From: a virus
IMG/VR virus record: IMGVR_UViG_3300020054_000001
Location: 1-44,013 of that record
DNA length: 44,013 nt
Strand: one strand, 5' to 3'
Positions 15,860-43,689 of the stretch are shown piece by piece. The position numbers were made by a program, and so were the translations under genes. The notes beneath the pieces were generated by a model. That model ran no database searches. It saw nothing but the letters and a program-made list of their open reading frames with translations, and had not been told where the DNA came from. The stretch's first letter is position 1. The number at the start of each line of letters is the position of its first letter.

Positions 15860-15936
15860 TTGCGCTGAATGTGGGGGCGTTCTATAAATAAATCGTCAGC
15901 GGGACACAACAACAACAACCCGCCCGGAGAGACACC
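15860..15936 (+). promoter_or_regulatory. Type A promoter with leader hairpin
   Basis: -35 TTGCGC (15860-15865), 17-bp spacer, -10 TATAAA (15883-15888), preceded by a T-rich tract and CTTTTCCGC. The leader has GCGGG ... CCCGC pairing around an ACAACAACAACAA loop, then a GGAGAG ribosome site. Confidence 0.88.
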
Positions 15937-16299
15937 ATGAACAACGACCTGACCATCTTCCGCCGCCTCTACCGCAACCTCCAGGGCGAGGCTATCGAGG
16001 CCGGTTTCGCCGCTAGCGCCGCCGAGTTCAACCGCGCCGCCTTGTGGGGAGTCGAGGATGAGGTTAAGGCCGCAGCCCGCGGCGGTGACGTTGAGGCCGC
16101 GATGGCGCTCTGCGATGCCGCCGAGGCTTGGCTGGACGGCGAACTGGCGGCGGCTCGCAAGGCTGCGGGAGAGGACGATTGGGAGGCGGCTTGCGAGGCT
16201 GCGGGAGAGGACGATTGGGGCGATTGGGACGAGCGCGCGGCTTACCGGGCGGCGGTTTGGAAACGGGCTTGCGACGCTCAGCTATCCTACGTCGATTGA
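15937..16299 (+). CDS. Acidic Ala/Trp-rich orphan protein, antisense in head operon
   Basis: 120 aa, helical and acidic with many Ala and Trp. Residues about 72-95 carry two tandem copies of a 12-residue unit with the core AAGEDDW, encoded by an in-frame 36-bp tandem repeat. Expressed from its own type A promoter on the strand opposite to the flanking head genes and closed by a terminator. That is the layout of a moron: an independently expressed accessory gene. No known family; function unknown. Confidence 0.75.
   Translation: MNNDLTIFRRLYRNLQGEAIEAGFAASAAEFNRAALWGVEDEVKAAARGGDVEAAMALCDAAEAWLDGELAAARKAAGEDDWEAACEAAGEDDWGDWDERAAYRAAVWKRACDAQLSYVD
16149..16220 (+). repeat. In-frame 36-bp tandem duplication
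   Basis: Two adjacent 36-bp copies (16149-16184 and 16185-16220) differ at only a few positions and encode two copies of a 12-residue acidic unit. Confidence 0.85.
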
Positions 16300-16319
16300 G
16301 CCCACACGGGCCGCACACA

Positions 16320-16360
16320 AGCCCCGCCCCGTGCGGGGTTTCGTGCTTGGGGCTCTTTTT
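16320..16360 (+). terminator. Intrinsic terminator
   Basis: Nested hairpin: outer arms AGCCCC (16320-16325) and GGGGCT (16349-16354), inner CCCCG...CGGGG, then CTTTTT. Its T-run merges with the T-rich tract upstream of the next promoter. Confidence 0.8.
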
Positions 16361-16382
16361 CCAACTTTCTTCCGTTTTCCGC

Positions 16383-16454
16383 TTGCGTCCGGTCTGGCTG
16401 GTTTCTATAACTAACTCACTAGCGGGGCACGAAGCGCCGCGGGAGGAGAGAGTG
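16383..16454 (+). promoter_or_regulatory. Type A promoter with leader hairpin
   Basis: -35 TTGCGT (16383-16388), 17-bp spacer, -10 TATAAC (16406-16411). Leader carries CGGGGC-ACGAA-GCGCCG, a six-pair stem with one internal mismatch, then GGGAGGAGAGAG. Confidence 0.85.
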
Positions 16455-16637
16455 ATGTTCTGTGTCGAGTTCTTTACCGGAAGGTCTTGGGTGCTCGTGG
16501 GGGAGTACCCGTCAGAATCAGAGGCCGAGGAGAGCGCCGCCTATGTGGCTTGGCATCGGAAGTCCGGGTTCAAGTTCATGAACCTTCACGTCGAGTCCGT
16601 CTCCATTCGAGACTCGCACGGTCGCCGGTACGTCTAG
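16455..16637 (+). CDS. Small orphan protein, antisense in head operon
   Basis: 60 aa, beginning MFCVEFFTGRSWVLVGEYPS. Short aromatic strands at both ends, one acidic helix between (SEAEESAAYVAW) and a basic end (DSHGRRYV); this looks like a small two-strand, one-helix domain. Start chosen at 16455 because GGAGGAGAGAG lies just upstream; longer in-frame extensions lie upstream of the promoter. Its stop overlaps the stop of the convergent minus-strand gene. No known family. Confidence 0.75.
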   Translation: MFCVEFFTGRSWVLVGEYPSESEAEESAAYVAWHRKSGFKFMNLHVESVSIRDSHGRRYV

Positions 16638-16816
16638 CCCTTCTCCCGCCAGTCCTTCGAGCGCCGATCCCCTCCCCATCCGTGGGCCGAGGGGATCTGC
16701 GCTTTCTGGCGCATCTTCCGCACCGCGTCCGCGGTCAATCCCTCGCGGAGTGCGACCACCCGATCCGCCTCCTTGCCGATCCCGTCTGGGAGTGTGGTCC
16801 GTGGGGGTCGCGCCAC
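16634..16816 (-). CDS. Small basic protein in head operon
   Basis: 60 aa from a GTG that overlaps the upstream stop as TAGTG. Arg/Lys-rich with a predicted helix (ADAVRKMRQKAQI) and a basic tail (GWGGDRRSKDWREKG). Overlapping stop with a convergent gene and coupled start support a real gene. May bind nucleic acid by charge; no family recognised. A longer frame (16518-16832) on the same strand is less likely because it would run deep under the plus-strand gene. Confidence 0.55.
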   Translation of the reverse strand: MARPPRTTLPDGIGKEADRVVALREGLTADAVRKMRQKAQIPSAHGWGGDRRSKDWREKG

Positions 16817-17256: not shown

Positions 17257-17271
17257 TCAAGACCCCCCAGA

Positions 17272-20200: not shown

Positions 20201-21096
20201 TTGATCTGGAGCTTGCTCAGGGTGCGCCACTGTTCCCAGAGGCTCCAGTTGGGCCGGAGGAGGCCATAGGGCGCGGGGTCGTTCCCCTGGGGCATAAAGC
20301 GCGCGTGGACTAGCTGATCCGCCCTAAATCGCACGTTGTCGTAGTTGCGGGCGCGGGTCGCCTTGGCGATCTCCTCGTCCCCTCCGACGTTGTACACCTC
20401 CACGCCCCACACGGTCCGATTGTGCGGCCCCGGCTCGGGGAGCCAATACTGGACGTTCCACGCGGGGATCGGAGCGATCTGGAGCGTGTGTGCGCCCTGT
20501 AGGACCACGGCCCCGGAGTCATCGCGGACCGTGATCGTGGGATCGACCGGATAGTATGGCTGGCCCAGGACGAAGCCATCCGTCGGGAGCGTGGCGAACT
20601 GGCTCAGGAGGCCCATCATCCCGCCGCCGCCGCCCGCGTAGTGGTCATCGATCACCGTGCGGGCGAACTCCGCGATCATCAGGTCGCGGGAATCGCCGCC
20701 CTTCGGGGGATCGATCCGCCACTGGCGCGAGAGCGTGGAGAGGCTCCAGGCCAGTTTCCCCGCCTGGAGGATCGGCCACTCGCGGACCATCTTGTCCCGG
20801 AAGCCGATGTACCCGTCGAACCCGAACCACTGATCCTGATCGAGCCGGTCGTTGTGCTCTAGCTGGACCTCACCCCCGGAGACGTAGACGCTCGGGGGCG
20901 CGTAGTCCTTCCGAGGGAGCCCGCTTGGGGCCTGAGTCGCCAGGGCGGTGATCTCGCGCGGGACGGTGATCTGGGGCTGACCCGTGGCCTTGGCGCGTTC
21001 CACCGTCGCCGCGTCAACCGCCAGGGTCCAAGTGAGTGAGCCGTTGTCTTCCACGCGAGCAAAGTACGCGCGGGCATAAGATCGCGCAACCGTCAA
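17272..21096 (-). CDS. Portal-MuF fusion protein
   Basis: 1,274 aa, about twice a normal portal. Residues 1-490 are a Mu gp29/DUF935-like portal (KQQLKMDALAGMFAQHV and the LHGSQKQEF region typical of the wing). An acidic Pro/Gly linker (500-560) leads to two helical repeats-like modules (about 590-665 with YRRGAGAFSVSHRPGMTRNQ, and 835-930 with GMTAVGLARARDLANGRP), a Cys cluster (C995, C998, C1010, C1025, C1032, C1038) that could hold metal, and a MuF/SPP1 gp7-like end (LESQTCQFCDQFDGTVFG, LCEGGDKCNC). One chain would therefore supply the DNA channel and the minor head protein. The start codon is TTG at 21096, after a repeated hairpin; a GTG at residue 15 is an alternative. Confidence 0.85.
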   Translation of the reverse strand: MTVARSYARAYFARVEDNGSLTWTLAVDAATVERAKATGQPQITVPREITALATQAPSGLPRKDYAPPSVYVSGGEVQLEHNDRLDQDQWFGFDGYIGFRDKMVREWPILQAGKLAWSLSTLSRQWRIDPPKGGDSRDLMIAEFARTVIDDHYAGGGGGMMGLLSQFATLPTDGFVLGQPYYPVDPTITVRDDSGAVVLQGAHTLQIAPIPAWNVQYWLPEPGPHNRTVWGVEVYNVGGDEEIAKATRARNYDNVRFRADQLVHARFMPQGNDPAPYGLLRPNWSLWEQWRTLSKLQINGWQKAAFGIPQIETTAEANPGDIATVNQIVSNLRAGALARYSLPPGFRVTYREVPFRAGDLDKTKQQLKMDALAGMFAQHVATGSANGTQALHGSQKQEFHALAEYVARTIVSTLTRGPVSTAPLKRLVSLNFRDVESYPVLSFGPMPVSDPSEFVAAITKASDAGALTLDGGIEATIRDALNLPEMPMETSAQWKARLQNEAPPNITPTQADTGEEDEPDGPDEPPEGPPDGDGGGVTDSGGEEADEAEDQSEVRAAAEDPAKTPALPEERVRGSKKNPEGSASGKRGGIEVSPAVEEALRAKVEDHNDGRTSKARRVDLGALKAVYRRGAGAFSVSHRPGMTRNQWAMGRVNGFLRRVAGTGGHPQDDDLLPEGHPNKPQAAADLLPESRVMGDRIVAGPGGRAVRPIETVIRLSETLAVTNAGKDEVTKVLVDWRMETAKEYGDRLEKDAETLGDVADIPVPNERELERNLITALRRVYRSGRLSVESEMDRLEDDPSLAADLATGEAKVGSPGIPAPERTLVASAESDTHIPPESVRKAARDALSARKDAHPSERGMTAVGLARARDLANGRPVTIATMRRMRSYFARHEVDKEGATWDEKGKGWQAWQGWGGDPGREWVERILEREDARAMAEHAACPAATQSVQINTRNRDATVRQFGYGPLNVDRPGDFWEEIAEAWDTSEEAARESLCGNCVAFDVSPRMEACMPGPVSDEDGRLGYCHMHHFKCHSARTCRTWAKGGPITEDEVSLEWQERSSGAVASSDHVHGPGCGCGSSGALLDSRRLVERIRAMADQPKAGGRRKVRAPKPAPAQPESEVDEIEPNEAIESVARTTVAAMVARLRNRAQSVLQNAGIGGALPTLGIGALVTSAIRALSPGTEANQAQADVNTTFGLGRAQQQRAEGADRFIFSNLLESQTCQFCDQFDGTVFGPDELDFFATPFQLCEGGDKCNCLILAVPPEQEEFRPDLG

Positions 21097-21100
21097 GGGT

Positions 21101-21126
21101 GCCCCGTACTAGGCCCGGGGCGGGGC
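21101..21126 (-). repeat. Type II intercistronic hairpin
   Basis: RNA sense: GCCCCG ... CGGGGC around a loop containing GGCCTAGTA; an alternative register pairs CGGGG with CCCCG closer to the loop. One of six copies of an intercistronic hairpin; here it sits just before the portal start. Confidence 0.75.
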
Positions 21127-21138
21127 TCGTGGGTTGAC

Positions 21139-21396
21139 TTAGCGCGACACCTCGAAGAGTCCGGGCGCGGCCTCCGCCGCCGTCTGGCTGCTCTGGTAGG
21201 TGTCACCGAAAGCCATCGCACCGAGCGATCCGGGCCGCTGGTAGTACAGGTCATACACCCGCTCGCCGGAGACCTCGTCACGATAGCTACGGATCTCGCA
21301 CTTGCTGTCCTTGGACCGCAGGACATCGAGACCATCGCCGCGGCGAATCGAGAACCAGTTGTTGAGGTCGGCGTAGTTGGCGGCGTTCGTGGTCAT
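21139..21396 (-). CDS. Small orphan protein with own promoter
   Basis: 85 aa, starts MTTNAANYADLNNWFSIRRGDG. Mixed alpha/beta with a central strand pair (KCEIRSYRDEVSGERVYDLYYQ) and a Gly/Ala-rich end. First gene of a transcript that leads into the portal fusion, so its promoter also feeds the head operon. No family recognised. Confidence 0.75.
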   Translation of the reverse strand: MTTNAANYADLNNWFSIRRGDGLDVLRSKDSKCEIRSYRDEVSGERVYDLYYQRPGSLGAMAFGDTYQSSQTAAEAAPGLFEVSR

Positions 21397-21466
21397 GTTC
21401 TCTCTCCTCCCGGGTGCTCCGTGCCCCCGTTGGATTATTTATAGACCCCCTCGATATTGGGCGCAA
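21397..21466 (-). promoter_or_regulatory. Type A promoter with leader hairpin
   Basis: Minus strand: -35 TTGCGC (21466-21461), 17-bp spacer, -10 TATAAA (21443-21438). Leader folds as GGGGGC-ACGGA-GCACCC with one mismatch, then GGGAGGAGAGAG. Probably the main promoter for portal and downstream head genes. Confidence 0.88.
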
Positions 21467-21491
21467 GCGGAAAAGCGAAAAAAAGCGAAAG

Positions 21492-21520
21492 AAAAAGCCC
21501 CGAGGATTTCCCCAGGGCCT
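21492..21520 (-). terminator. Intrinsic terminator
   Basis: Minus strand: GCCC-T ... GGGGC stem followed by TTTTTC. Lies after the small gene ending at 21534 and just upstream of the next type A promoter, so its T-run forms part of that promoter's upstream tract. Confidence 0.75.
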
Positions 21521-21533
21521 CTCCGTCTCCTCT

Positions 21534-21731
21534 TTAGCCTCCGATCACGAGGCAGAAGATCGGCGTGGACGACCCCAGCACGGCCAGCGTCCGCCGCACG
21601 ATCCGCACACGTTGATCCGGGTTCTCCCGCCTCAACTCCTCCCGCCACGCGGCGGCGTCCGCCCTGGAGGTGAAGGTCCAGATCGCTCCGAGTTCCCCTC
21701 CGGGGGTGATGCAATGGCCGGGGTTGTTCAT
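21534..21731 (-). CDS. Small orphan protein
   Basis: 65 aa, starts MNNPGHCITPGGELGAIWTF, with a GGGAGGGAG ribosome site. A basic helix (DAAAWREELRRENPDQRVRIV) is followed by a hydrophobic end (LAVLGSSTPIFCLVIGG) that could insert in a membrane. Third gene of a three-gene transcript that ends at a terminator. Function unknown. Confidence 0.7.
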   Translation of the reverse strand: MNNPGHCITPGGELGAIWTFTSRADAAAWREELRRENPDQRVRIVRRTLAVLGSSTPIFCLVIGG

Positions 21732-21741
21732 GGCTCCCTCC

Positions 21742-21909
21742 CTAGCTCTCGGCCCTAGCGAGGGCCTCCATCGTCACGCGGGCGTCAGTCTCCGCGGCAC
21801 GCTTCGTGCCGGTGTACTCGATCTCTTGCACGATCCGCCCGTTGCGGCGGATCTGGGAGCGCCAGACACGGCTCCCGGCGCGGAACGTCATCACAGACCA
21901 GTTGCTCAT
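21742..21909 (-). CDS. Small orphan protein (55 aa)
   Basis: 55 aa, starts MSNWSVMTFRAGSRVW, ends ARAES. A beta-type N-terminal half (RVWRSQIRRNGRIVQEIEY) and a C-terminal helix. Ribosome site GAGGAGGAGAGAG directly upstream, preceded by a type II hairpin; stop lies 10 bp before the next start. The shared leader with neighbouring genes supports a real gene. No family recognised. Confidence 0.75.
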   Translation of the reverse strand: MSNWSVMTFRAGSRVWRSQIRRNGRIVQEIEYTGTKRAAETDARVTMEALARAES

Positions 21910-21923
21910 CTCTCTCTCCTCCT

Positions 21924-21944
21924 CCCGGGTACAAGGCCCCCGGG
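21924..21944 (-). repeat. Type II intercistronic hairpin
   Basis: RNA sense: CCCGGG-GGCCTTGTA-CCCGGG, six-pair stem with the shared loop, directly upstream of a GGAGGAGAGAG ribosome site. Confidence 0.85.
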
Positions 21945-21958
21945 CGGGCTCTGGGTTG

Positions 21959-22186
21959 CTAGTCGATCAGGTAGCAGTCGGCCAGCGCGGCTTTGACCGT
22001 CGCGGCCTTGCCCTCCGCGATCACCGTGGGCGCGATCCCCGTGGTGGTCAGGGAGTAGTGGCCCGCGTCGTAGCGGAGCGAGAGCGTCCCGAGGCGGGTC
22101 TGGCCGATGAGGGCGTCCCCTTGCTTGCGGGCGAGGCGAAGGTCAGAGGCGGCGAAGCGGGCGAGGTCGGCGTCAAGTGCGGTCAT
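21959..22186 (-). CDS. Small orphan protein with type A promoter
   Basis: 75 aa from the ATG at 22186 (MTALDADLARFAASDLRLAR), which sits next to GGAGGAGAGAGACC. An N-terminal helix is followed by short strands (TLSLRYDAGHYSLTTTG) and a final helix (AATVKAALADCYL). A longer frame to 22258 would run through the promoter and is rejected. First of three small genes on one transcript. No known family. Confidence 0.78.
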   Translation of the reverse strand: MTALDADLARFAASDLRLARKQGDALIGQTRLGTLSLRYDAGHYSLTTTGIAPTVIAEGKAATVKAALADCYLID

Positions 22187-22302
22187 GGTCTCTCTCCTCC
22201 TGGGGCGTCGTTGCCCCGTCGATGCTCTATTTATAGACGCGGGCGATATCGAGCGCAAGCGGAAAAGCGAAGAAATATCGGAAAGGCGAGGCGTCCAGCG
22301 TT
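22187..22302 (-). promoter_or_regulatory. Type A promoter, leader hairpin and upstream motif
   Basis: Minus strand: -35 TTGCGC (22258-22253), 17-bp spacer, -10 TATAAA (22235-22230). Leader stem GGGGC-AACGAC-GCCCC before AGGAGGAGAGAG. Upstream motif ACGCTGGACGCCTCGCC lies with CTCGCC exactly 22 nt from CCGCTTGCGC. Confidence 0.9.
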
Positions 22303-22311
22303 TCTAGAACG

Positions 22312-22333
22312 AAAAAACCCCGCCTGGGCGGGG
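22312..22333 (-). terminator. Strong intrinsic terminator
   Basis: Minus strand: CCCCGCC-CA-GGCGGGG followed by TTTTTT. It ends the transcript of the single gene at 22358. Confidence 0.92.
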
Positions 22334-22357
22334 CTTGATCGGAGCGGGGCTTGTGGC

Positions 22358-22642
22358 CTAGAGGCTCGTGTAGAGGCCCGTGGTGGACTCGATCACGCTC
22401 TTGACGTTCGAGGCGTAGACACCGGAGAAGGACGCCACCTCCTTGATCGAGAAGTTCCGGCCCAGCTTGAGGAAGTCCATCGTGTAGGTGTCATCACCGG
22501 CCAGGGTGATCTTGAGGTAGTTGGCCTTTCGGCTCCCGCGGAACTTGAAGGACAGGGCGTCCCCGTGGTCGATCAGGTTGAAGGCTCCCATCATCACGAG
22601 AGCGCCGCCGAGTTGGGTCTGGATGGTGCGGGCGATGTTCAT
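22358..22642 (-). CDS. Orphan protein expressed as a single gene
   Basis: 94 aa, starts MNIARTIQTQLGGALVMMG. Basic; alternates helix and strand, with FSIKEVASFSGVYASNVKSV near the end resembling a helix-turn-helix-like turn, although I would not call it one. Complete monocistronic unit: type A promoter, leader hairpin, gene, perfect terminator. It lies just after the large terminase stop. Function unknown. Confidence 0.8.
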   Translation of the reverse strand: MNIARTIQTQLGGALVMMGAFNLIDHGDALSFKFRGSRKANYLKITLAGDDTYTMDFLKLGRNFSIKEVASFSGVYASNVKSVIESTTGLYTSL

Positions 22643-22758
22643 GGTCTCTCTCCTCCGCGGGGTTCGTCCCCGTCGATGAGTTAGTTATAGATGACCACCC
22701 ACACGGGCGCAAGCGGAAAAGCGAAAAAAGACGGAAAAGGCGAGACGTACAGCGGTTA
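22643..22758 (-). promoter_or_regulatory. Type A promoter, leader hairpin and upstream motif
   Basis: Minus strand: -35 TTGCGC (22712-22707), 17-bp spacer, -10 TATAAC (22689-22684). Leader stem CGGGG-ACGAA-CCCCG. Upstream motif CCGCTGTACGTCTCGCC starts at the terminase stop codon and has the fixed 22-nt distance. Confidence 0.9.
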
Positions 22759-24564
22759 GAACCCGCCAGATCCGTCCCACATATCCCCGGAAAACCACGG
22801 GGACGCGATCTCCGGGGCCGCGGGCGTCAGCTTGATCCGCTCGGTCGGCCTCTTCCGTTGCTCCCAGATCACGCCCTGAGCCGCCGCGTCGGGAAGGTCG
22901 TTCCGCCCGGTCCCGTCTCGGCACTCAGCCTCGAACATCACGACCCACGGAACGGAGACGCGCCCCGAGTCCTTCCCGAGTGCATCCGGCCACCGGTCCC
23001 CGCGCGCCCTGGCGATAGGGAGGAGGGTGGCGATCTCCGAGTAGCTCACCGAGACGCGGCGGAGCCATGTGGCGTCGGGGTGCGGGAGGTAGACCTGCCC
23101 TGAGCGCATACGGGCCGCGAGGACGCCGATCCGGCTCTCCTTCGACTGAGACCCAGGGGAGAACCCCTCCACCCCTCGGATCACCCTCTGAAGGTCCTCC
23201 ACGAGGGCGGGGCCGAGGGCCTTGGTCTCCACGATGAACGAGTCCAGCCCCGGGGACTGAGCCCGCGCGAAGTCGAGACACCGCTGGCGCATCTCGTGCC
23301 ACGTCATCACGTCCGCGTCGAGGTCGTACAGGTACAGGATCGCGCCCTGGCGTCCCATAGCCTCGATCGCCACGCGGGAGGAGGTGGCCTTGGTGGTCCC
23401 GAACGTGGCGTCAATGCTGGCCCACCTCTGATCCATCGTGATCGTGGCCGGGTGCTCGAAGAATCGGGGACAAGCGTCCAGGGCCTCCGCTAGTTCGTTC
23501 CCGCCCTCCTTCTGGGGGTCCTGCCGGTATTGGGCGGCGTACTGTGACGGCCCCATCACCTCTCTCTGGCGGTTTAGGATCTCAGACGATAGGAGGACCG
23601 GGTGGAGTAACTCCCCGGGCTCAGATCGCGGATCTGACGGCGAGGCGTGGGGGTGCTCGGGGTCATACTCGGCGGGGAGGCAGAGGTGATCCCAGCCCAT
23701 GCGGATCAGCCACCCTCCCACGTCCAGATCGTGGAGCCTCTGGCCGATCACCATGCGGGCGTGATGCCCGTCCCGCTGGTCATCGATCCGGTTCCATAGC
23801 TGGCCCGCGATCACGCTCCGCACCTCTAGCAGTCGGCGGGCGGTCTGATCCTCCGAGCCGCGGATCACCTCCGAGGCGTCCAGGGCATCGTCTACGCCCC
23901 ACATCCCGCCACGGAGGCCGGTGATCTGGGTGCTCCGGGTGCTGAGGCACTGACGGCCCCCGCCGCTGTTTAACTCGAACCAGAGGCGCTCATTCTTGTC
24001 ATCGCGGAAGGCCCACGGCTGATCCCCCGCCTGGAGGACCTCGTCCCAGGGTCCGCCCCTCCACTGGTCAAGCTCTCGGAGCCTTCGGACCTGATACCGG
24101 AGGAGCCGCTGGTATCGCTCCGAGCGGATGATGTACCGGGCGCGGCCTGAGTCCCGGGAGACCACCCGATCCGAGCCACTGAGCCAGATGCACGTCCACG
24201 TCGGATCGTGGAGCCACCGGAAGGGCGCGGAGAGGACCGAGCCCACGACGGACTTCATGGACCCGGGAGGGACCGCGAGGTAGCCGTTGGGGCGGCGGTA
24301 TGTGATCCGCTCCTCGATCCAGTCACACATCACGCGCACGTAGGGAGCCGGGAGGAATGGCCGCGCGCCGTGGAGGACCGGCCACACATACAGCAGGAAC
24401 CCGAACAGGCTCCCCAGGGCCTCCTCCATCTCCAGGGCCTCCTCCACGAGCCTCCGAGGCTCCCCAGAGAGCCCCGCCGCATGAGCCCGCGCGGTCTCCC
24501 CGTCGCCCTCTCGGGCCGCGAGGATCGCGCGCTGGGCTCGGATCCGGTCTAGTGTCGCGCTCAT
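22756..24564 (-). CDS. terL: Large terminase subunit
   Basis: 602 aa DNA-packaging motor. ATPase: Walker A VPPGSMKS at residues 98-105 (Lys104), Walker B with VDD at 224-226. Nuclease: acidic residues D385 (SIDATFG), E446 (FIVETKAL) and D557/D559 (NDLPDAAA) in the usual order of the RNase H-like domain. Length is normal. The ATG overlaps the stop of the preceding small gene as ATGA. It is the fourth gene of a transcript starting at the type A promoter near 25448, and is followed by a conserved upstream motif of the next promoter. The small subunit is encoded elsewhere. Confidence 0.93.
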   Translation of the reverse strand: MSATLDRIRAQRAILAAREGDGETARAHAAGLSGEPRRLVEEALEMEEALGSLFGFLLYVWPVLHGARPFLPAPYVRVMCDWIEERITYRRPNGYLAVPPGSMKSVVGSVLSAPFRWLHDPTWTCIWLSGSDRVVSRDSGRARYIIRSERYQRLLRYQVRRLRELDQWRGGPWDEVLQAGDQPWAFRDDKNERLWFELNSGGGRQCLSTRSTQITGLRGGMWGVDDALDASEVIRGSEDQTARRLLEVRSVIAGQLWNRIDDQRDGHHARMVIGQRLHDLDVGGWLIRMGWDHLCLPAEYDPEHPHASPSDPRSEPGELLHPVLLSSEILNRQREVMGPSQYAAQYRQDPQKEGGNELAEALDACPRFFEHPATITMDQRWASIDATFGTTKATSSRVAIEAMGRQGAILYLYDLDADVMTWHEMRQRCLDFARAQSPGLDSFIVETKALGPALVEDLQRVIRGVEGFSPGSQSKESRIGVLAARMRSGQVYLPHPDATWLRRVSVSYSEIATLLPIARARGDRWPDALGKDSGRVSVPWVVMFEAECRDGTGRNDLPDAAAQGVIWEQRKRPTERIKLTPAAPEIASPWFSGDMWDGSGGF

Positions 24565-24803
24565 CTCAGGATGGCCGCGGTGGCGTCGGAGAGCCTGCTA
24601 AAGACCCCGTCCACGTCGCAGAGGTGGACCCGGTAGCGGGGATCCAGCGGATCCGCGTGCTGGGCGGCATGGTGGATCGCCCTGGCTTGCTCCGCGTCCT
24701 GGGTCACGATCCAGTCTCGGCACCGATCCCCGCCATAGTGGAAGGTCGCCACGACGTGGGAGCCCCGCACCTCATACCAACCCCGATCGATCTTCGTCCT
24801 CAT
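24561..24803 (-). CDS. Orphan protein translationally coupled to terL
   Basis: 80 aa (MRTKIDRGWYEVRGSHVVATF). N-terminal strands, then a helix with paired His residues (QARAIHHAAQHADPL) and a further strand region. Stop overlaps the terL start, and a type II hairpin precedes its GGAGGAGAC ribosome site. Coupling to terL hints at a packaging-linked or simply co-regulated role. Not homologous by eye to small terminases. Confidence 0.72.
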   Translation of the reverse strand: MRTKIDRGWYEVRGSHVVATFHYGGDRCRDWIVTQDAEQARAIHHAAQHADPLDPRYRVHLCDVDGVFSRLSDATAAILR

Positions 24804-24814
24804 CGTCTCCTCCT

Positions 24815-24835
24815 GCCCGGTACAAGGCCCCGGGC
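24815..24835 (-). repeat. Type II intercistronic hairpin
   Basis: RNA sense: GCCCGG-GGCCTTGTA-CCGGGC, six-pair stem with conserved loop, followed by CAGGAGGAGAC. Confidence 0.88.
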
Positions 24836-24861
24836 GGGGCTATGGGTGTCTGGGGTCGCGC

Positions 24862-25128
24862 TCATGCGATCAGGGCCTGGAGGACGATCGCCTTGGCCTC
24901 TCGGACCGTGGCCCCGTTGGGGATCTCCACGTCGGCTCCGTCCACGTCCGCGCACCAGACCCAGGGGGCCTCACGGTCCCGCACGAGTCCGCCGACCCCG
25001 TTGGCGTGCCAGCGGGTGGGGCGCTCCCGCTGGATCCTGGCGACCCACTCCCCGCCGACCTCCAGGCTCCACTCGGTGCATCCCTCGAAGGTCCCCAGGT
25101 TCTCCCACTTGCCGATCTGCTTGCTCAT
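24862..25128 (-). CDS. Orphan protein, Trp-rich
   Basis: 88 aa from the ATG at 25128 (MSKQIGKWENLGTFEGCTEW) next to GGAGGAGAGAG. Seven tryptophans, beta-type spacing and a final helix (ATVREAKAIVLQALIA). The longer frame to 25290 runs antisense-like through the neighbouring gene and is rejected. Middle gene of the pre-terL transcript. No family recognised. Confidence 0.75.
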   Translation of the reverse strand: MSKQIGKWENLGTFEGCTEWSLEVGGEWVARIQRERPTRWHANGVGGLVRDREAPWVWCADVDGADVEIPNGATVREAKAIVLQALIA

Positions 25129-25142
25129 CTCTCTCTCCTCCT

Positions 25143-25163
25143 GCCCGGTACAAGGCCACGGGC
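25143..25163 (-). repeat. Type II intercistronic hairpin
   Basis: RNA sense: GCCCG-TGGCCTTGTAC-CGGGC, five-pair stem; same loop core, followed by CAGGAGGAGAGAG. Confidence 0.85.
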
Positions 25164-25175
25164 GGGGCGTTCTGG

Positions 25176-25403
25176 CTAGTAGTAGGTGACGAGGTCGAAG
25201 GCGATAACGTTCCCGATCTCGTCGCGACCCGCTGCGGATGCGAACGTCACGCCCTTCCGCCCGTCGTCGCTCCACTCGGTGGCGGACCAACGCTCCGAGC
25301 CCTTGACAGGCAAGCGGCGGAAGTCATTGACCGCGAGCCACTCCACGGCCTCGGGGCGGGTGGCGAAGGAGACGGTGGAGATGTTGGCGCGGGTGGTGGT
25401 CAT
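25176..25403 (-). CDS. Orphan protein with type A promoter, first gene before terL
   Basis: 75 aa, starts MTTTRANISTVSFATRPEAVEW. Short strand, helix, then a basic loop (PVKGSERWSATEWSDDGRKG) and a final beta segment ending VIAFDLVTYY. First gene of the transcript that reaches terL. No known family; size and fold type resemble several neighbours, which may be diverged paralogues. Confidence 0.75.
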   Translation of the reverse strand: MTTTRANISTVSFATRPEAVEWLAVNDFRRLPVKGSERWSATEWSDDGRKGVTFASAAGRDEIGNVIAFDLVTYY

Positions 25404-25475
25404 CGTCTCTCTCCTCCGGGGCTCGTCCCCGCTGTTGGATTATTTATAGACCGGGCCGAATGCACTCGCAAGCGG
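25404..25475 (-). promoter_or_regulatory. Type A promoter with leader hairpin (drives terL operon)
   Basis: Minus strand: -35 TTGCGA (25471-25466), 17-bp spacer, -10 TATAAA (25448-25443). Leader stem CGGGG-ACGAG-CCCCG directly before GGAGGAGAGAG. No CTCGCC motif upstream; a terminator lies there instead. Confidence 0.9.
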
Positions 25476-25502
25476 AAAAGCGAGAAAAGGAGCAGAAAAA
25501 GC

Positions 25503-25524
25503 AAAAACCCCGCTCGGGGCGGGG
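25503..25524 (-). terminator. Strong intrinsic terminator
   Basis: Minus strand: CCCCGC ... GCGGGG stem followed by TTTTT, after the gene ending at 25547. Confidence 0.9.
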
Positions 25525-25546
25525 CTTGCTTGTGGTGGGCGGGCCG

Positions 25547-25768
25547 CTAGCCCTGGCACTCCCGGGGCTTAACCTCCCCCCAGGTGTCCCAGAAGGCGAG
25601 CCCGAGGTCCAGGCCGTTGGGGGTGGCGGCAATGGGGGCGTAACGGTGGCAGAGGGACCGACCGGTCCCGCGGGAGTCGATGCGGACGAGGATGGCGTTC
25701 ATCTCGTCCCACACGAACAGGCGGCTATCAGTGGCGAACTTGTTGGGAAGGTCGGCGGCGTTGGTCAT
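25547..25768 (-). CDS. Small orphan protein
   Basis: 73 aa, starts MTNAADLPNKFATDSRLFVW. Beta-rich with a compact acidic end (LAFWDTWGEVKPRECQG). Second gene of a two-gene transcript that ends at a strong terminator; preceded by a type II hairpin and a GGAGGAGAGACC ribosome site. Function unknown. Confidence 0.75.
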   Translation of the reverse strand: MTNAADLPNKFATDSRLFVWDEMNAILVRIDSRGTGRSLCHRYAPIAATPNGLDLGLAFWDTWGEVKPRECQG

Positions 25769-25783
25769 GGTCTCTCCTCCGTC

Positions 25784-25804
25784 CCCGGTACTAGGCCCCG
25801 GGGT
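25784..25804 (-). repeat. Type II intercistronic hairpin
   Basis: RNA sense: CCCCGG-GGCCTAGTA-CCGGGG, six-pair stem; loop shared with the other copies but stem changed with compensation. Confidence 0.88.
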
Positions 25805-25819
25805 GGGCTCGTGGTGGCT

Positions 25820-26131: not shown

Positions 26132-26248
26132 GTTCTCTCTCCTCCGTGGCGGTGTGTCCCGCCGATGAGTTAGTTATAGAACTACCCCACATTCGGGCGC
26201 AAGCGGAAAACGAAAGAAAAGCGAAAAAGGCGAGGCGTCGAGCGTTTA
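26132..26248 (-). promoter_or_regulatory. Type A promoter, leader hairpin and upstream motif
   Basis: Minus strand: -35 TTGCGC (26202-26197), 18-bp spacer, -10 TATAAC (26178-26173). Leader stem GGCGG-GACACA-CCGCC. Upstream motif ACGCTCGACGCCTCGCC begins at the stop of the RHH gene, with CTCGCC 22 nt from CCGCTTGCGC. Confidence 0.9.
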
Positions 26249-26515: not shown

Positions 26516-26564
26516 CGCACCTCCTGGCGTGTGTACAGTAGAGGGTGCTGTTTTGTACGCACAA
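26516..26564 (-). promoter_or_regulatory. Type B (TGTACA) promoter
   Basis: Minus strand: -35 TTGTGC (26564-26559), 18-bp spacer, -10 TACTGT (26540-26535) overlapping a TGTACA palindrome (26532-26537). A second partial box, TGTACG, lies in the spacer. Short leader with AGGAGGTG. Confidence 0.75.
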
Positions 26565-31768: not shown

Positions 31769-31843
31769 GGTCTCTCTCCTCTGGGACGTTGTGTCCCGCC
31801 GTTGGACTATTTGTACTAGACCCGCCCATCACGGCGCAAGTGG
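31769..31843 (-). promoter_or_regulatory. Type A promoter (weak -10) with leader hairpin
   Basis: Minus strand: -35 TTGCGC (31839-31834), 18-bp spacer, -10 TACAAA (31815-31810), the most divergent -10 of the family. Leader stem GGGAC-ACAAC-GTCCC then AGAGGAGAGAG. Confidence 0.8.
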
Positions 31844-32831: not shown

Positions 32832-32947
32832 GGTCTCTCTCCTCTAGGGCTTCGTTGCCCCCCGTTGGACTATTTATAGGCCCGGGTGATTCTCAGCGCA
32901 AGCGCATATCGAACTATTTTTGAAAAAGGCGAGCCGTGTAGCGGTCA
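32832..32947 (-). promoter_or_regulatory. Type A promoter, leader hairpin and upstream motif
   Basis: Minus strand: -35 TTGCGC (32901-32896), 17-bp spacer, -10 TATAAA (32878-32873). Leader stem GGGC-AACGAA-GCCC. Upstream motif CCGCTACACGGCTCGCC, again 22 nt from the CGCTTGCGC block although the sequence between is different. Confidence 0.9.
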
Positions 32948-33133: not shown

Positions 33134-33154
33134 GCCCGGTACGAGGCCCCGGGC
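33134..33154 (-). repeat. Type II intercistronic hairpin
   Basis: RNA sense: GCCCGG-GGCCTCGTA-CCGGGC, six-pair stem, followed by CAAGGAGGAGAC. Confidence 0.88.
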
Positions 33155-33382: not shown

Positions 33383-33497
33383 GGTCTCTCTCCTTGGGGC
33401 TTCGTTGCCCCCCGTTGGATTATTTATAGGACAAGCCTCATCCCAGCACAAGCGGATAGCGCGCTTTTTCCGAAAAAGGCGAGACGCACCACGATCA
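33383..33497 (-). promoter_or_regulatory. Type A promoter, leader hairpin and upstream motif
   Basis: Minus strand: -35 TTGTGC (33451-33446), 17-bp spacer, -10 TATAAA (33428-33423). Leader stem GGGGC-AACGAA-GCCCC. Upstream motif TCGTGGTGCGTCTCGCC starts at the helicase stop codon, 22 nt from CCGCTTGTGC. Confidence 0.9.
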
Positions 33498-34796
33498 GCC
33501 CACGACCGGATCGAACCTCTGGAACTCTCCCCGCCACCTCATCTTGGCCCGCCCCAGGCGTCCGAACCGGGCCTTAAGGATCGACACCTCCGCCAGTCCC
33601 TTCACGCCTGACTCAGGGTTGTAGTAATCGTCCCTGTAGAGCCCGAGAGCGGTGGACGCCGCCTGAACGAGTTTCTTCCCATAGTCGATGTCTCCGAGTT
33701 TGGGCCGCTTGTCGGTCCGCTTTTTAACGTCGGAGTTCATCTGTACGCACAGGATCACGGCCACCCCGCACTTCTTCCCGATCCTCTGGGCGTACTCCGC
33801 GATCTCGGAGATCCGCTCGGGCTCGGTCATCCTGTCGTCGGAGGCGGGGACGATGTGGGCGTGATCGATCCCGATCCACTGCCAGCCCTCGGTCCTGACC
33901 CCTCGGCGGGTCCTGGCGTAGATCTCGGGCATGGTCGGGAGGTCGTCGTCCACCCAATACGGGAGCCGGTCGATCCGCTCGTGGGCTCCGACCAAGATCG
34001 CCTTCTCCTCGTCCGTGAGGCTTCCGTGCTGGATCCGGCTGTAACTGATCCGGCCCTCGTTCGCGAGGTCCCGCTCCATGTACTCGTCCCGGGTCATCTC
34101 CAGACCGAACAGGCACCCGGGATGACCGTTGGCGGCGAGTCCCTTCGCTAGCTGGCCCATGAGGGCGGACTTCCCCAAACCGGACGCTCCGAGGATGAGG
34201 ATCACCTTCCCGAGCACGATCAGCCGTCCGTGCTCCTCGTCTAGCTCGCGGATCCCCGTTGGGAGGGCCTGAGCCCCCGGCTCGTCGCGGATCAGCCGGT
34301 CCACCACCCGGTGGGCCGTATCGGAGACGGGAGAGCACGTGGGGGGCTTGGGAGAGCCCTCCTCGATGGTGTCCCCGAGCATCTTGGCCGCTCCCTCGAA
34401 GTCCCCGCCCCGGCTCAGGTTGGCGTGAGCCATCACACACGAGGTCATCAGGGCGCGGGCTCGGGCGTCCATGAGGACGCGGGCTGCGTACTTGTCCACC
34501 TCCGAGGTCATCGGACAGGAGCCCAGGAGGCCGACGAGATACGGGTACCCGCCGATCTTGTCGAGCATCCCCGCCCGCTCCAGGCGTCCAGCCACTCCCA
34601 CCGGATCCATCGGCTCGTTCGCCTGGGAGCACTCCAGATAGGTCCGCCAGATCAGACGATGGGGCTCGGAGTAGAACGACTCCGGGACCACTCCCTGGGC
34701 CTGTAGGTCCCAGAGCGTGTCCGGTGACATCAGGACCGCCCCGAGGCAAGCCCGCTCCGCTCCCACGTCGTGGGGGATCTTGTCCGAGATGATCAC
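33495..34796 (-). CDS. DnaB-like replicative helicase
   Basis: 433 aa. The first 100 residues are a DnaB N-terminal-like helical domain (ERACLGAVLMSPDTL). RecA fold: Walker A GASGLGKS at about 203-210, Walker B-type WIGIDHAH near 305, then ILCVQMNSDVKKR and RPKLGDI, the usual arginine-finger region. Start GTG at 34796, overlapping the previous stop as GTGA with GGGAGGA just upstream; a longer GTG start at 34814 is less likely. It unwinds DNA at the phage fork, loaded by the upstream replication protein. Confidence 0.9.
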   Translation of the reverse strand: MIISDKIPHDVGAERACLGAVLMSPDTLWDLQAQGVVPESFYSEPHRLIWRTYLECSQANEPMDPVGVAGRLERAGMLDKIGGYPYLVGLLGSCPMTSEVDKYAARVLMDARARALMTSCVMAHANLSRGGDFEGAAKMLGDTIEEGSPKPPTCSPVSDTAHRVVDRLIRDEPGAQALPTGIRELDEEHGRLIVLGKVILILGASGLGKSALMGQLAKGLAANGHPGCLFGLEMTRDEYMERDLANEGRISYSRIQHGSLTDEEKAILVGAHERIDRLPYWVDDDLPTMPEIYARTRRGVRTEGWQWIGIDHAHIVPASDDRMTEPERISEIAEYAQRIGKKCGVAVILCVQMNSDVKKRTDKRPKLGDIDYGKKLVQAASTALGLYRDDYYNPESGVKGLAEVSILKARFGRLGRAKMRWRGEFQRFDPVVG

Positions 34797-35899
34797 CGCT
34801 GATCCTCCCACCACCGCGCCACGATGGGACGAAGGGCTTGGACCGAGGGCGCTCCCTCCTGGCGGGCGATGTAGTCCAGGGCTTGATCGAACGTCTGGAT
34901 CTGACCCAATACGCGGAGAGTGTCGATGTCGCCCCGCGCCTTCTGGGCGTGCCCGTCAACCTCCCGCCACCACCGCTCGACCTTGACCGAGGGGACGCTT
35001 GGAGCGGAGAGGACGCCCCTCGCCCTCTTGTCCAGCCGCTTGATCAGCGTGTTCCGCTTGTACTCGGAGTTGAAGCCCCACATGGCCTCTGGGCCGTTGA
35101 CCTTGAATGCGTCGGATCCTCGGTCGTTCTTCCCCCGCCACCACTCATCGACGGCGAGAGCCTCCAGATCTTCCGCGATCGCTTCGTAGCCGTGGGCCTG
35201 GATCGCCTTCTTCGCACTAGAGAGCCTCAGTCCGTCAGCCTTCGAGCCCTTGGACCGCCGAGTCTTGGCGAGTTCATGCCACCGGGCGATCAGCGTCTCC
35301 GCCTGCTCTGCCCGAACCTGAGCCGCCGTTTTAGCCTTCGGCATCGGAAACAGGGTCGGCGCTCCGCCGACGTTCAAGTCTTGTGCTTCTTCTTGTGCTT
35401 CTTCTTGTGCTTCATGTGGGGGGTTCCGCACCCCCGGGGGCTGGGGGGTTCCGCACCCCGGGGGTCCCGGGGGGGCTACACCATGCGGGGCTTCGTGCCC
35501 CTGGGGGCTCTCCACCCCGGGGGGCTCCGCACCCCCGGGGGCTTGTCTCCATATGGGGCACCCGAGCGGGGCGCAGTCCCACGAATCGTAATCCTTGACC
35601 AGAGCCCACTCGGCGGGCCTGGAGGCGCGCGGGTCAGCTTCACGGACGAGGACGATCACGCCCTTCCGCCTGAGGCCGTCCAAGGCTCGCTTGCGCTGCT
35701 TCCGATCGCGGATCCCGGTCAAGGACTCGATCACCGCATGGGAGAACCTGTGCTCGGTCGTGGTCTTTCCCCAGCCCCAGGAGGCGCGGATCAGCGCGAG
35801 GACCATACGGAACTCGCTCGGGGTCAGGTCGGCATTGTTGAGGACCGCGAAGAGGTCCCGGTGGACCGGCATCGCCCGGTCTGGCTGAACGTCAGCCAC
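34793..35899 (-). CDS. Lambda O-like replication initiator
   Basis: 368 aa from a GTG at 35899. The N-terminal 100 residues (VHRDLFAVLNNADLTPSEFRMVLALIR in parts, ASWGWGKTTTEHRFSHAVI, LTGIRDRKQRKRALDGLRRKG) match the winged-helix origin-binding domain of Phage_rep_O proteins. A Pro/Gly-rich linker with a repeated HEAQEEAQEEAQ tract follows, then a helical C-terminal domain that probably binds the helicase. The linker is encoded by iteron-like DNA (35380-35541). The ATG at 35872 is an alternative start. In lambda, O binds iterons inside its own gene; the same is proposed here. Confidence 0.85.
   Translation of the reverse strand: MADVQPDRAMPVHRDLFAVLNNADLTPSEFRMVLALIRASWGWGKTTTEHRFSHAVIESLTGIRDRKQRKRALDGLRRKGVIVLVREADPRASRPAEWALVKDYDSWDCAPLGCPIWRQAPGGAEPPGVESPQGHEAPHGVAPPGPPGCGTPQPPGVRNPPHEAQEEAQEEAQDLNVGGAPTLFPMPKAKTAAQVRAEQAETLIARWHELAKTRRSKGSKADGLRLSSAKKAIQAHGYEAIAEDLEALAVDEWWRGKNDRGSDAFKVNGPEAMWGFNSEYKRNTLIKRLDKRARGVLSAPSVPSVKVERWWREVDGHAQKARGDIDTLRVLGQIQTFDQALDYIARQEGAPSVQALRPIVARWWEDQR
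35380..35541. other. Candidate replication origin inside the initiator gene
   Basis: Four well-matched copies of a GC-rich unit (GGGGG-TTCCGCA/CTCCGCA-CCCC-GGGGG) at 35418-35440, 35443-35464, 35503-35524 and 35519-35541, plus one degenerate copy. Next to them, three exact 12-bp repeats (CTTGTGCTTCTT, 35380-35415) form a strand-biased tract. Iterons plus a biased tract within an O-like gene is the lambda origin layout. Confidence 0.6.
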
Positions 35900-36092
35900 C
35901 GTGGACCTCTGCCTTCTCGTCGTCGCGGAAGACCACGACGCGCCCACCAGCGCAACGGACCCGGATCTCCACGATGCTCGCCACGGGATCGTTTCCGTGT
36001 CCGGTGACGTGGTCCCACATGGCGTTGAGCAGTTGCTCCACCGTGCAGTTGATCACCGTGCCCATCTCGATACCGTCTCTGTTTTCGTTCAC
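35892..36092 (-). CDS. Small protein before the replication initiator
   Basis: 66 aa from the GTG at 36092 (reads MNENRDGIEMGTVINCTVEQ). GGAGAGGTG precedes it, itself preceded by a CCCGC-GACA-GCGGG hairpin, which supports this start over an ATG at 36128. Helix (VEQLLNAMWDHV) followed by beta strands (IVEIRVRCAGGRVVVFRDDE). Overlaps the initiator start by 8 bp. No family recognised; possibly a regulator or helper of initiation. Confidence 0.65.
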   Translation of the reverse strand: MNENRDGIEMGTVINCTVEQLLNAMWDHVTGHGNDPVASIVEIRVRCAGGRVVVFRDDEKAEVHGG

Positions 36093-36761: not shown

Positions 36762-36833
36762 CTCTCTCACCTCCTGGCTGGACTGTACACCAGAGGCCCC
36801 CGGCGTGGGGTGGACTTTTTTCCACTTCACCAC

Positions 36834-36868
36834 TTGACCCCCTCGCCTGTAGGTGTACAGTTCACACC
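36834..36868 (+). promoter_or_regulatory. Type B promoter of the recombination operon
   Basis: TTGACC (36834-36839), 16-bp spacer, TACAGT (36856-36861) overlapping TGTACA. The spacer is exactly CTCGCCTGTAGGTG plus two bases; the same 14-mer is found at 36132-36145 upstream of the replication genes. Divergent TGTACA at 36784-36789. Confidence 0.75.
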
Positions 36869-39677: not shown

Positions 39678-39751
39678 TTGCGCTCTGATTCGGCTTCCCT
39701 GTATAAAGAGAGTGTCAGCGGGACACAACGTCCCCGGAGGAGAGAGAAGCC
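39678..39751 (+). promoter_or_regulatory. Type A promoter with leader hairpin
   Basis: -35 TTGCGC (39678-39683), 18-bp spacer, -10 TATAAA (39702-39707), T-rich tract upstream. Leader stem GGGAC-ACAAC-GTCCC then GGAGGAGAGAG. Confidence 0.9.
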
Positions 39752-39952
39752 ATGATCAAGAACCGCCTGGACCTTCGCGACTTTGCCAACACCGACGAGG
39801 ATTCGGCTGACGCCATCCGGCGAGCCGACGCCGAGGGGTGGGGCCTCAACCTCTACGCCGACCCCGAGCAGGACGGCGCGGAACTCGTGGACATTGACGA
39901 CGCGATCGATGCCGCGCGCATCGACTCCGGCCTCGTCTACCTCACGCGGTAG
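39752..39952 (+). CDS. Small acidic orphan protein
   Basis: 66 aa, very acidic (MIKNRLDLRDFANTDEDSAD). Helix (SADAIRRADAEGWG) followed by short strands and a second acidic helix (DIDDAIDAARIDSG). Acidic DNA-mimic or anti-host roles are common for such early phage proteins, but unproven here. First gene of a small plus-strand operon. Ribosome site GGAGGAGAGAG. Confidence 0.75.
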   Translation: MIKNRLDLRDFANTDEDSADAIRRADAEGWGLNLYADPEQDGAELVDIDDAIDAARIDSGLVYLTR

Positions 39953-40687: not shown

Positions 40688-40698
40688 ATGGAGGAGAC

Positions 40699-42113: not shown

Positions 42114-42547
42114 CGTCTCGCTCCCTCCACGGCCCATCCGACCCCAGCGCACGCCCCAAACCCCACCGCAGCACCCGCCGCGAAGTCCCGAGGCTTGCTC
42201 GCCCGGCACGTCTTGATGCCCTCCACGGTGGCAGCGTGGATCCGGTCCGCGAACCGCCGATCCTCATCCCTCCACCGGTAGCAGGCCACCAGAGCCCGGG
42301 AGGCGTCCTCATACGCCTCCACCGAGCGCGCGAACCCTTGACCCGCCAGGAGCCACCCATCGAAGGGGGCGGGGTCTCCCGCTAGTACCTTCGCCCGGTC
42401 CTTCACCACGTCCCGGAGGTCCTCGGGCTCATACCGGGTCACGTCCTCCCAGGGGATCGGGTCGATCAGCCGGTGACGACCCGCACCCGTCAGAGCCAGG
42501 ACCGAGACCGCCACGAGGACCCAGCGGAGATCGATCTGGACCGTCAT
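42110..42547 (-). CDS. Membrane protein of the lysis block
   Basis: 145 aa. N-terminal hydrophobic helix (RWVLVAVSVLALTGAG, about 8-23), a charged helical middle domain and a Gly/Ala-rich hydrophobic end (FAAGAAVGFGACAGVGWAV). Might span both membranes, as spanins do, but the N-terminal segment has no lipobox Cys. Overlaps both neighbours (ATGA). Role in lysis is inferred from position only. Confidence 0.6.
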   Translation of the reverse strand: MTVQIDLRWVLVAVSVLALTGAGRHRLIDPIPWEDVTRYEPEDLRDVVKDRAKVLAGDPAPFDGWLLAGQGFARSVEAYEDASRALVACYRWRDEDRRFADRIHAATVEGIKTCRASKPRDFAAGAAVGFGACAGVGWAVEGARR

Positions 42548-42906
42548 CCGAGCGGATCCGCCCCGAGCGCCTGTGCGCGTCTCTCGCGGTCTTTCGCATC
42601 CTCGGGGGGTGCTGACTCGACGGACTCACCCAAAGCCTCTGAGGCGCGCTCTGAGGCCCTCTCCTGGCGGCTCTCGGTCTGGCGGGTCTCCACCGCTGCC
42701 GCCTCTCGGTGATCTTCGATCGCCTCGGTGGCCTCGTCCCGGGCGGCGCTCCTCCGCTGCGCGGAGCGCACACCCACAGCACCCGCGAGTACAGCGGCCA
42801 CAGCCTCCACCACGAAGCCCCGAAGGGGCGGGACGAGGACGAGAAGCAGGAGGACGCCAGCCGCCGCCACGGTGGCCCAGAAGTACCAGGGCAGGGGGCG
42901 GCTCAC
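42544..42906 (-). CDS. Holin-like membrane protein with charged tail
   Basis: 120 aa from a GTG that overlaps the previous stop (GTGA). Two hydrophobic segments (FWATVAAAGVLLLLVLV and GFVVEAVAAVLAGAVGV) separated by a short loop, then a long Glu/Arg-rich helical tail. Two-helix topology with a charged end fits a class II holin or an antiholin-like protein. Confidence 0.68.
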   Translation of the reverse strand: MSRPLPWYFWATVAAAGVLLLLVLVPPLRGFVVEAVAAVLAGAVGVRSAQRRSAARDEATEAIEDHREAAAVETRQTESRQERASERASEALGESVESAPPEDAKDRERRAQALGADPLG

Positions 42907-43133
42907 TGGGGCGGCTCCTCGACGGGTGGAGACCCGCTCGGGCGCTCCGTCTCCCCGGAGATGTACCGGCTCCCGAGGTATGCAGCACCACCGACGAACG
43001 CGGCATAGATCCCGGCGATCTCCACGCTGGAGTCCTTCGCCAAGACGCACCCGGAGACGGCGATCACCATCCCGATGAACTTGAGCCTCCGGGACTCCTT
43101 CTCCGTGTCCTTGCGCTTGCTGGTGGTCCTCAT
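42903..43133 (-). CDS. Holin
   Basis: 76 aa: basic N-terminus (MRTTSKRKDTEKESRRLK), two predicted membrane helices (FIGMVIAVSGCVLA, IAGIYAAFVGGAAYLG) and a Pro/Glu tail, the size and layout of a class II holin. First gene of the lysis block, with coupled downstream genes. No promoter of either family is visible upstream; it may depend on read-through of the UUCG terminator before it. Confidence 0.72.
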   Translation of the reverse strand: MRTTSKRKDTEKESRRLKFIGMVIAVSGCVLAKDSSVEIAGIYAAFVGGAAYLGSRYISGETERPSGSPPVEEPPQ

Positions 43134-43172
43134 GCGGCGGAGGGTACCACCCGAGGATCTGGCCCAAGCAAG

Positions 43173-43191
43173 AAACCCCGCCGAAGCGGGG
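43173..43191 (-). terminator. Intrinsic terminator with UUCG tetraloop
   Basis: Minus strand: CCCCGC-TTCG-GCGGGG followed by TTTCTT. Very stable short stem after the gene at 43217; incomplete T-run may allow read-through into the lysis genes. Confidence 0.85.
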
Positions 43192-43216
43192 TCCCTGCGG
43201 GGGCGCTAGCTCAGGG

Positions 43217-43612
43217 TCATCGGGCGATACCCGCCTGGAAATCGGCCAGCTCACGGGCGAGGTCAGCGCCCGGGTGCAGCGCCTCCCGGACGGTGTAGGT
43301 ATCGCAGAAGCGGTAAGCCACCGCCTCGGCAGCGTCAGCCCACTCGGCGGGGGTCGGCTCGCGCTCGGTCACGACCTCATCGTTACCGCAGAGCGGGCCA
43401 CCGACCACACCGACCACAACCTCAAGGTCGGCGCGGTAGTGAGCCTCCTCGCGGGCGAGGTCAGCGAACTCCGCGCCGCTGATCTCCTCCCGGTAGGCCA
43501 CCGCCAGCGCGCGGCGGTAAAGGGCGAGGGCCGCACGGTAACGGGTGCGCGGGTCGGCCTTGACGTGACCCTTGCCCCAGCGGGGAGCGGCGGTGTTGAG
43601 TGCGTTGTTCAT
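43217..43612 (-). CDS. Orphan protein with type A promoter, upstream of lysis block
   Basis: 131 aa from the ATG at 43612 (MNNALNTAAPRWGKGHVKAD). Predominantly helical with Tyr-rich stretches (RYRAALALYRRALAVAYREE, AEFADLAREEAHYRADLE) and an acidic end (ALHPGADLARELADF). Expressed from a type A promoter divergent from the two-HTH gene. The extension to 43708 would run through the promoter. Family unknown. Confidence 0.75.
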   Translation of the reverse strand: MNNALNTAAPRWGKGHVKADPRTRYRAALALYRRALAVAYREEISGAEFADLAREEAHYRADLEVVVGVVGGPLCGNDEVVTEREPTPAEWADAAEAVAYRFCDTYTVREALHPGADLARELADFQAGIAR

Positions 43613-43689
43613 GTTGTCTCCGTGTCGTTTGTTGTTGTGTCCCGCTGACACTCTTTTTATACCCACTCCCGTTCCGATGGCGCAAGTGG
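43613..43689 (-). promoter_or_regulatory. Type A promoter (divergent pair, leftward)
   Basis: Minus strand: -35 TTGCGC (43685-43680), 18-bp spacer, -10 TATAAA (43661-43656). Leader lacks the usual perfect stem; GTGTC ... GACAC or TGTC-AGCGG-GACA pairing is possible. Diverges from the promoter of the two-HTH gene. Confidence 0.82.

Follow-up and report, generated by a model that had tools for sequence, protein, structure and literature searches.

Stable hairpins near the 5' ends of transcripts have been described in several systems. The 5' stem-loops of ompA, papA and aprE combine a stable hairpin near the 5' end with a ribosome site behind it, and their shape matters independently of sequence. 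In E. coli and B. subtilis, RppH is impeded by 5' hairpins and the mRNA is stabilised; B. subtilis RppH requires two unpaired nucleotides (nt), with a preference for at least three (PMC3997798). Among phages, the stem-loop of T7 gene 10 gave a fourfold reporter output and was described as an mRNA stabiliser (PMC2254391). In the present study, two families of hairpins, class A and class B, were analyzed before small genes of a tailed phage, IMG/VR record IMGVR_UViG_3300020054_000001, which is complete; its whole stretch of 44,013 bases is called the window below. Compared with the systems above, this locus is a known kind of device in a new layout.

The small accessory open reading frames (ORFs) of the phage sit in short units, and every unit has a promoter of its own. 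The repeated type A promoter was TTTTCCGCTTGCGC-N17/18-TATAAA, and the pattern TTTTCCGCTTGCG-N-TATAA had seven exact copies in the window, while the reversed pattern had none. Of the 13 type A leaders examined in the window, 11 had a class A hairpin of 4–7 base pairs (bp), lying downstream of the predicted start site (taken as the seventh base after the −10 hexamer) and upstream of the Shine–Dalgarno (SD) sequence; L038, a relative with about 70% DNA identity, had one such leader. These 12 leaders contained eight distinct stems, with a spacer of 5 to 15 nt between the stem arms. The initial annotation had placed a stem-loop between the −10 box and the ribosome site in most leaders, and the five stems it listed (GGGGC/GCCCC, CGGGG/CCCCG, GGGAC/GTCCC, GGCGG/CCGCC and GCGGG/CCCGC) were all read in the leaders. 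The description did not hold for two leaders near the right end: that of the ATG at 43612, close to position 43656 where the family had been taken to end, folded no better than shuffles (p ~0.3), and that at 43793 had a weak stem of 3–4 bp only.

Added up over 11 window leaders (leader 43612 counted in, leader 33382 excluded as redundant), the folding energy was −91.6 kcal/mol, against −38 for mononucleotide and −43 for dinucleotide shuffles (z ~ −8). Moreover, the mean energy upstream of the SD was −8.4 kcal/mol in the hairpin leaders versus −3.1 at 26 other starts in the same genome, and a perfect 5-bp hairpin occurred in just 6.3% of random 22-mers of the window. In L038, the ortholog of ORF 22642 (90% identical protein) bears a different class A hairpin. 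Rfam 15 gave no window match at or above the curated gathering threshold, and the region 21050–26250 gave chance-level matches only. The class A hairpins are real, and a selected RNA hairpin in the type A leaders is well supported.

Compensating changes across eight or more copies had been put forward as the proof of a selected RNA structure. The folding energies uphold the selected hairpin, but covariation does not prove it in class A, for which that proof was overstated. On the homology alignment (A3), the three paired columns were nearly invariant G–C, two-sided changes occurred at 0 of 3 pairs, the covariation term was unfavourable (+0.26), and the score was matched by 459 of 500 shuffles. 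Stacked on their closing pair, as had been done in the initial annotation, the class A stems do show two-sided changes. As a control, 12 unrelated hairpins of the window were aligned in this way, and in 500 of 500 draws all five pairs changed on both sides. The compensation argument is therefore circular, because closing-pair alignment makes unrelated hairpins look compensatory too; in general, hairpins aligned on their own stems always appear so.

Five leaders have the common 5' arm GCGGGACACA. Among them are those of the ORFs starting at 15937, 26131, 31768 and 39752, whose 3' arms (CCCGC, CCGCC, GTCCC and GTCCC, respectively) pair with different stretches of it. Since one 5' arm meets differing 3' arms, this is a register shift and not paired substitution. 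In an alignment-free chimera test, the native arms gave −91.6 versus a mean of −74.3 for swapped arms; this result (p ~0.001) is inflated by the kinship of the leader copies and is modest support for selection on pairing. Together, the register differences and the better pairing of native arms speak for such selection in class A. The same data bear on the idea that the stems are functionless by-products of GC-rich leaders of one duplicated unit. It would agree with the relatedness of the leader copies, the nearly equal folding of arm-swapped chimeras and the lack of covariation by homology in class A, but not with the energy excess over composition-preserving shuffles or with the several leaders that kept pairing, in different registers, after arm replacement. 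This explanation is very improbable.

It had further been stated that no such repeated family tied to one promoter type was known. This novelty argument fails, because in T7 a phage promoter already goes with recurrent 5' hairpins, in the phi3.8, phi10 and phi17 leaders. Folded from +1 to +25, all three started with a hairpin at +1 (−13.4, −13.4 and −10.3 kcal/mol, respectively). Further, phi10 and phi17 have the common 5' arm GGGAGA and differing 3' arms, so that the arm near the promoter is fixed and the other varies, the same mode of change as in the GCGGGACACA leaders. As in the T7 class III leaders, the hairpins recur at (here predicted) transcript 5' ends of one promoter type and a strong SD follows. 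The differences are that T7 uses a T7 RNA polymerase promoter, whereas no phage RNA polymerase was recognised here; that the T7 hairpin lies at +1, far upstream of the SD, instead of being offset from the predicted start and close to the SD; and that the present phage has a second, intercistronic family. The tie to one promoter type held for class A and not for the latter, class B, which precedes the SDs of downstream genes without a promoter.

The class B hairpins were found between genes of the same cassettes, five of those in the window being 5' of the same SD. Eight copies occur in three phages: six in the window, one in L038 (about 5390–5415, − strand) and one in L037 (about 10881–10905, + strand), a contig of 56% GC otherwise without significant similarity to the window. 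Aligned over the eight copies, the loop GGCCUNGUA had no gaps and was invariant at 8 of 9 positions. In the stem, two-sided changes were found by homology alignment at 3 of 6 pairs, and the covariation score was 0.349 versus 0.066 in shuffles, with 0 of 500 shuffles reaching it; slid controls scored 0 to 0.024, and shifting the partner by one base gave 0.02. The evidence for class B as a covarying RNA element is good but, at seven distinct sequences, not large. Class B is a stronger lead than class A and, being present in an otherwise unrelated phage, offers a testable new RNA element. All copies have GCCC upstream of the stem, which could pair with the loop GGC (an H-type pseudoknot) or compete with the stem (a GCCCC/GGGGC fold); either fold stays putative, as the GCCC bases do not vary. 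It is rather doubtful that class B represents a small RNA motif not described before, common to unrelated phages, which together with class A would flag the starts of accessory genes to a single trans-acting factor or nuclease.

For class B, 10 matches in 84,980 species genomes, with an SD following in none, were taken as chance, and the plasmids searched gave no significant match. A stretch of 10–11 nt (GGGCCUUGUAC) in the three copies with UUG in the loop (21924–21944, 24815–24835 and 25143–25163, − strand) also occurs in 16S rRNA (E. coli 1385). This likeness was set aside: about 0.6% of random window 35-mers equal the 11 nt, and the remaining copies interrupt it, the central base varying between copies. 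A role as intrinsic terminator was also rejected for both classes, as purines with no T run lie 3' of the hairpins and the terminator scan had no match at them.

In both families, all 19 SD-linked elements had the 3' end of the hairpin 0–2 nt before the SD, a long polypurine AGGAGGAGAGAGA. In class A, the hairpin began 2–6 nt after the predicted start site, a measure not applicable to class B. Therefore, the hairpin is positioned at least as tightly relative to the SD as relative to the 5' end. By analogy with the T7 phi10 leaders, the hairpins may protect or mark ribosome sites on short mRNAs, the leading though tentative reading, to which we give a probability of about 45%. Most translated starts inside the units are preceded by a GC-rich hairpin abutting a polypurine SD, with class A at predicted transcript starts and class B at internal starts. 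The hairpin and a strongly bound ribosome site would block 5'-end-dependent decay (by RppH/RNase E or by RNase J, according to the host), so that class A would protect the primary transcript and class B the downstream cistron after internal cleavage. Class A keeps its shape and not its sequence; the 3' arm may change while pairing with the promoter-proximal G-rich arm, as between phi10 and phi17. The shape, the predicted 5' end and the following ribosome site resemble ompA, papA and aprE, but those are single genes with a measured function, whereas a repeated family with a proposed function is seen here.

That hairpins stand before the type A and class B starts but are absent from most others in this genome argues for protection, as do the z of about −8, the tight SD spacing, the predicted start 2–6 nt away and the differing hairpin on the L038 ortholog. 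In addition, one class B copy has no SD, which fits stability better than translation. Several points weigh on the other side. A predicted unpaired 5' end of 4–6 nt is long for strict end sequestration, the relative L041 runs a homologous small-gene unit without such a hairpin, the invariant class B loop suggests recognition over mere protection, and both the start sites and any effect on mRNA half-life are predictions. If the hairpins do protect or mark gene starts, the phage reuses one modular kit to express small accessory genes, made up of a promoter, a hairpin and a polypurine SD, often with a terminator, and the parts of this kit, diverged in parallel within one genome, would form a natural mutant series for rules of 5' stability.

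The invariant loop leads to the main rival of the protective role, in which the hairpins are translational operators or enhancers and a phage or host RNA-binding factor reads the loop beside the SD, switching the accessory genes jointly. An invariant loop on a covarying stem, as in class B, is the usual sign of loop recognition; the class A loops have a common AC(G/A)A core, and the hairpins lie within 2 nt of the SD. Likewise, T4 gp43 binds an operator hairpin upstream, near a phage ribosome site, and the T4 and RB69 operators keep their loop identity (PMC3014915), although that system is a single autoregulated gene. However, the loops are not the same in class A as in class B, and one factor would not obviously read both; the likeness of the class A loops may reflect recent common descent, and no candidate protein was identified in this analysis. 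Loop recognition is somewhat unlikely on the whole; of the two families, class B is the likelier to work in this way.

The hairpins might also act on translation directly, either because they prevent the SD from being drawn into other structure or because they serve as a compact standby site. Both classes are tightly spaced to a strong SD, and structured regions 5' of the SD can alter initiation more than 100-fold (PMC3936740). The predicted SD accessibility was, however, unchanged by the hairpin (0.49 intact, 0.49 with the 5' arm complemented and 0.45 with the hairpin deleted), and insulation of the SD was rejected on this ground; the class B copy without an SD also speaks against such a role, which appears unlikely.

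The inverted repeat, which overlaps with the start site of a conserved promoter, might work as DNA, either as an operator at that site or as a promoter part, the RNA hairpin being incidental. The ESAS of cluster K mycobacteriophages (TM4, Adephagia) is such a case: a SigA-like promoter and an inverted repeat beside the start-associated sequence (SAS), held to be a DNA site (PMC3203893, PMC11373665). ESAS contains the promoter (PMC11373665), and like the leaders studied here, SAS/ESAS is a start-site module repeated in front of small non-structural genes, consisting of a promoter, an inverted repeat and an element with the SD. Unlike these leaders, the inverted repeats of ESAS are 17 bp long, conserved in sequence and do not support RNA pairing (PMC3203893). 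Instead of the 17-bp conserved repeat and the 13-bp GGGATAGGAGCCC of cluster K (PMC3203893), stems of 4–7 bp that vary and the SD AGGAGGAGAGAGA were found. Moreover, half-sites as different as the five stems listed above and a spacer of 5 to 15 nt are unlike a protein operator, and class B is placed alike without a promoter. A DNA site is improbable.

The phage encodes a Mu-like portal and protease, a DnaB helicase, a replication-O-like protein and an ERF recombinase. A twin record, IMGVR_UViG_3300020168_000026, is near-identical to the window (99.8–99.9%). The type A promoter scan of viral contigs gave only this near-identical record and lone matches without hairpin or SD, and a looser promoter-plus-leader scan returned the twin and L038 only. 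In the capsid scan, L041–L045 (capsid 78–79% identical) had no class A leaders in the stretches examined. The terminase and DnaB protein scans gave the twin and one distant relative (39% DnaB), without such leaders in the part examined. The annotated phages searched for class A and class B gave no significant match. In a GGGG..CCCC-SD scan, unrelated contigs that lack the type A promoter had single hairpin-SD matches, which were regarded as pattern-selected. In the viral contig pair L073 (about 7773–7798, − strand) and L075 (about 4010–4035, − strand), of 70% GC and without the type A promoter, the hairpin GGGGTTCGTACCCC stands immediately 5' of GGAGGAGAGAG; independent use of the hairpin-SD layout is possible there. 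At L041:4600-4760, an apparent homolog (by eye) of ORF 39752-39952 was seen, in a unit whose leaders have neither class A nor class B hairpins.

Table 1. Positions of the type A promoter example, type A leaders and class A and class B hairpins in the window
Feature	Position	Strand	Associated ORF	Basis or remark
Type A promoter, TTTTCCGCTTGCGC...TATAA	15852..15887	+		exact pattern count
Class A, GCGGG/CCCGC, 15-nt loop	15899..15923	+	leader of 15937-16299	folding
Class A, GCGGgGC-ACGAA-GCgCCGC	16422..16440	+	leader of 16455-16637	folding; one mismatch
Class A, CGGGgGC-ACGGA-GCaCCCG	21411..21429	-	leader of 21396-21139	folding; one mismatch
Class A, GGGGC-AACGAC-GCCCC	22202..22217	-	leader of 22186-21959	folding
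Class A, CGGGG-ACGAA-CCCCG	22658..22672	-	leader of 22642-22358	folding
Class A, CGGGG-ACGAG-CCCCG	25417..25431	-	leader of 25403-25176	final G common to SD; weakest of eleven
Class A, GGCGG-GACACA-CCGCC	26148..26163	-	leader of 26131-25820	folding
Class A, GGGAC-ACAAC-GTCCC	31783..31797	-	leader of 31768-31520	folding
Class A, GGGGC-AACGAA-GCCCT	32846..32861	-	leader of 32831-32529	folding; outer G-U
Class A, GGGGC-AACGAA-GCCCC	33396..33411	-	leader of 33382-33170	folding
Class A, GGGAC-ACAAC-GTCCC	39720..39734	+	leader of 39752-39952	folding
Type A leader without significant hairpin	43613..43661	-	leader of 43612-43217	
Type A leader without significant hairpin	43757..43792	+	leader of ORF starting 43793	
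Class B, CCCGGG-GGCCTTGTA-CCCGGG	21924..21944	-	before 21909-21742	
Class B, GCCCGG-GGCCTTGTA-CCGGGC	24815..24835	-	before 24803-24561	
Class B, GCCCGt-GGCCTTGTA-cCGGGC	25143..25163	-	before 25128-24862	closing pair broken
Class B, CCCCGG-GGCCTAGTA-CCGGGG	25783..25803	-	before 25768-25547	
Class B, GCCCGG-GGCCTCGTA-CCGGGC	33134..33154	-	before 33122-32958	
Class B, GCCCCG-GGCCTAGTA-CGGGGC, sixth copy	21101..21121	-	before portal-like ORF	no SD follows; covariance model R1, E=2e-4

The ORFs behind the hairpins are small (54–131 amino acids), and most have no known family. Terminator-like hairpins were found 3' of several units (21524-21491, 22336-22315 and 25527-25505); the terminator scan total of 11 was not much higher than the shuffle mean of 7.2. 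TGTACAG-type repeats near gene starts (26530-26560, 31140-31165, 36780-36795 and 36850-36865) resemble a second promoter or operator class. In addition, ORF 29161-30285 contains a tandem repeat of about 21 bp (CCTCGTACTCCTCCCGGAGAG) at 29480-29570, and the replication-O-like ORF 34793-35947 contains a GC-rich repeat run (GGGGGCTCCGCACCCCCGG-like) at 35415-35545.

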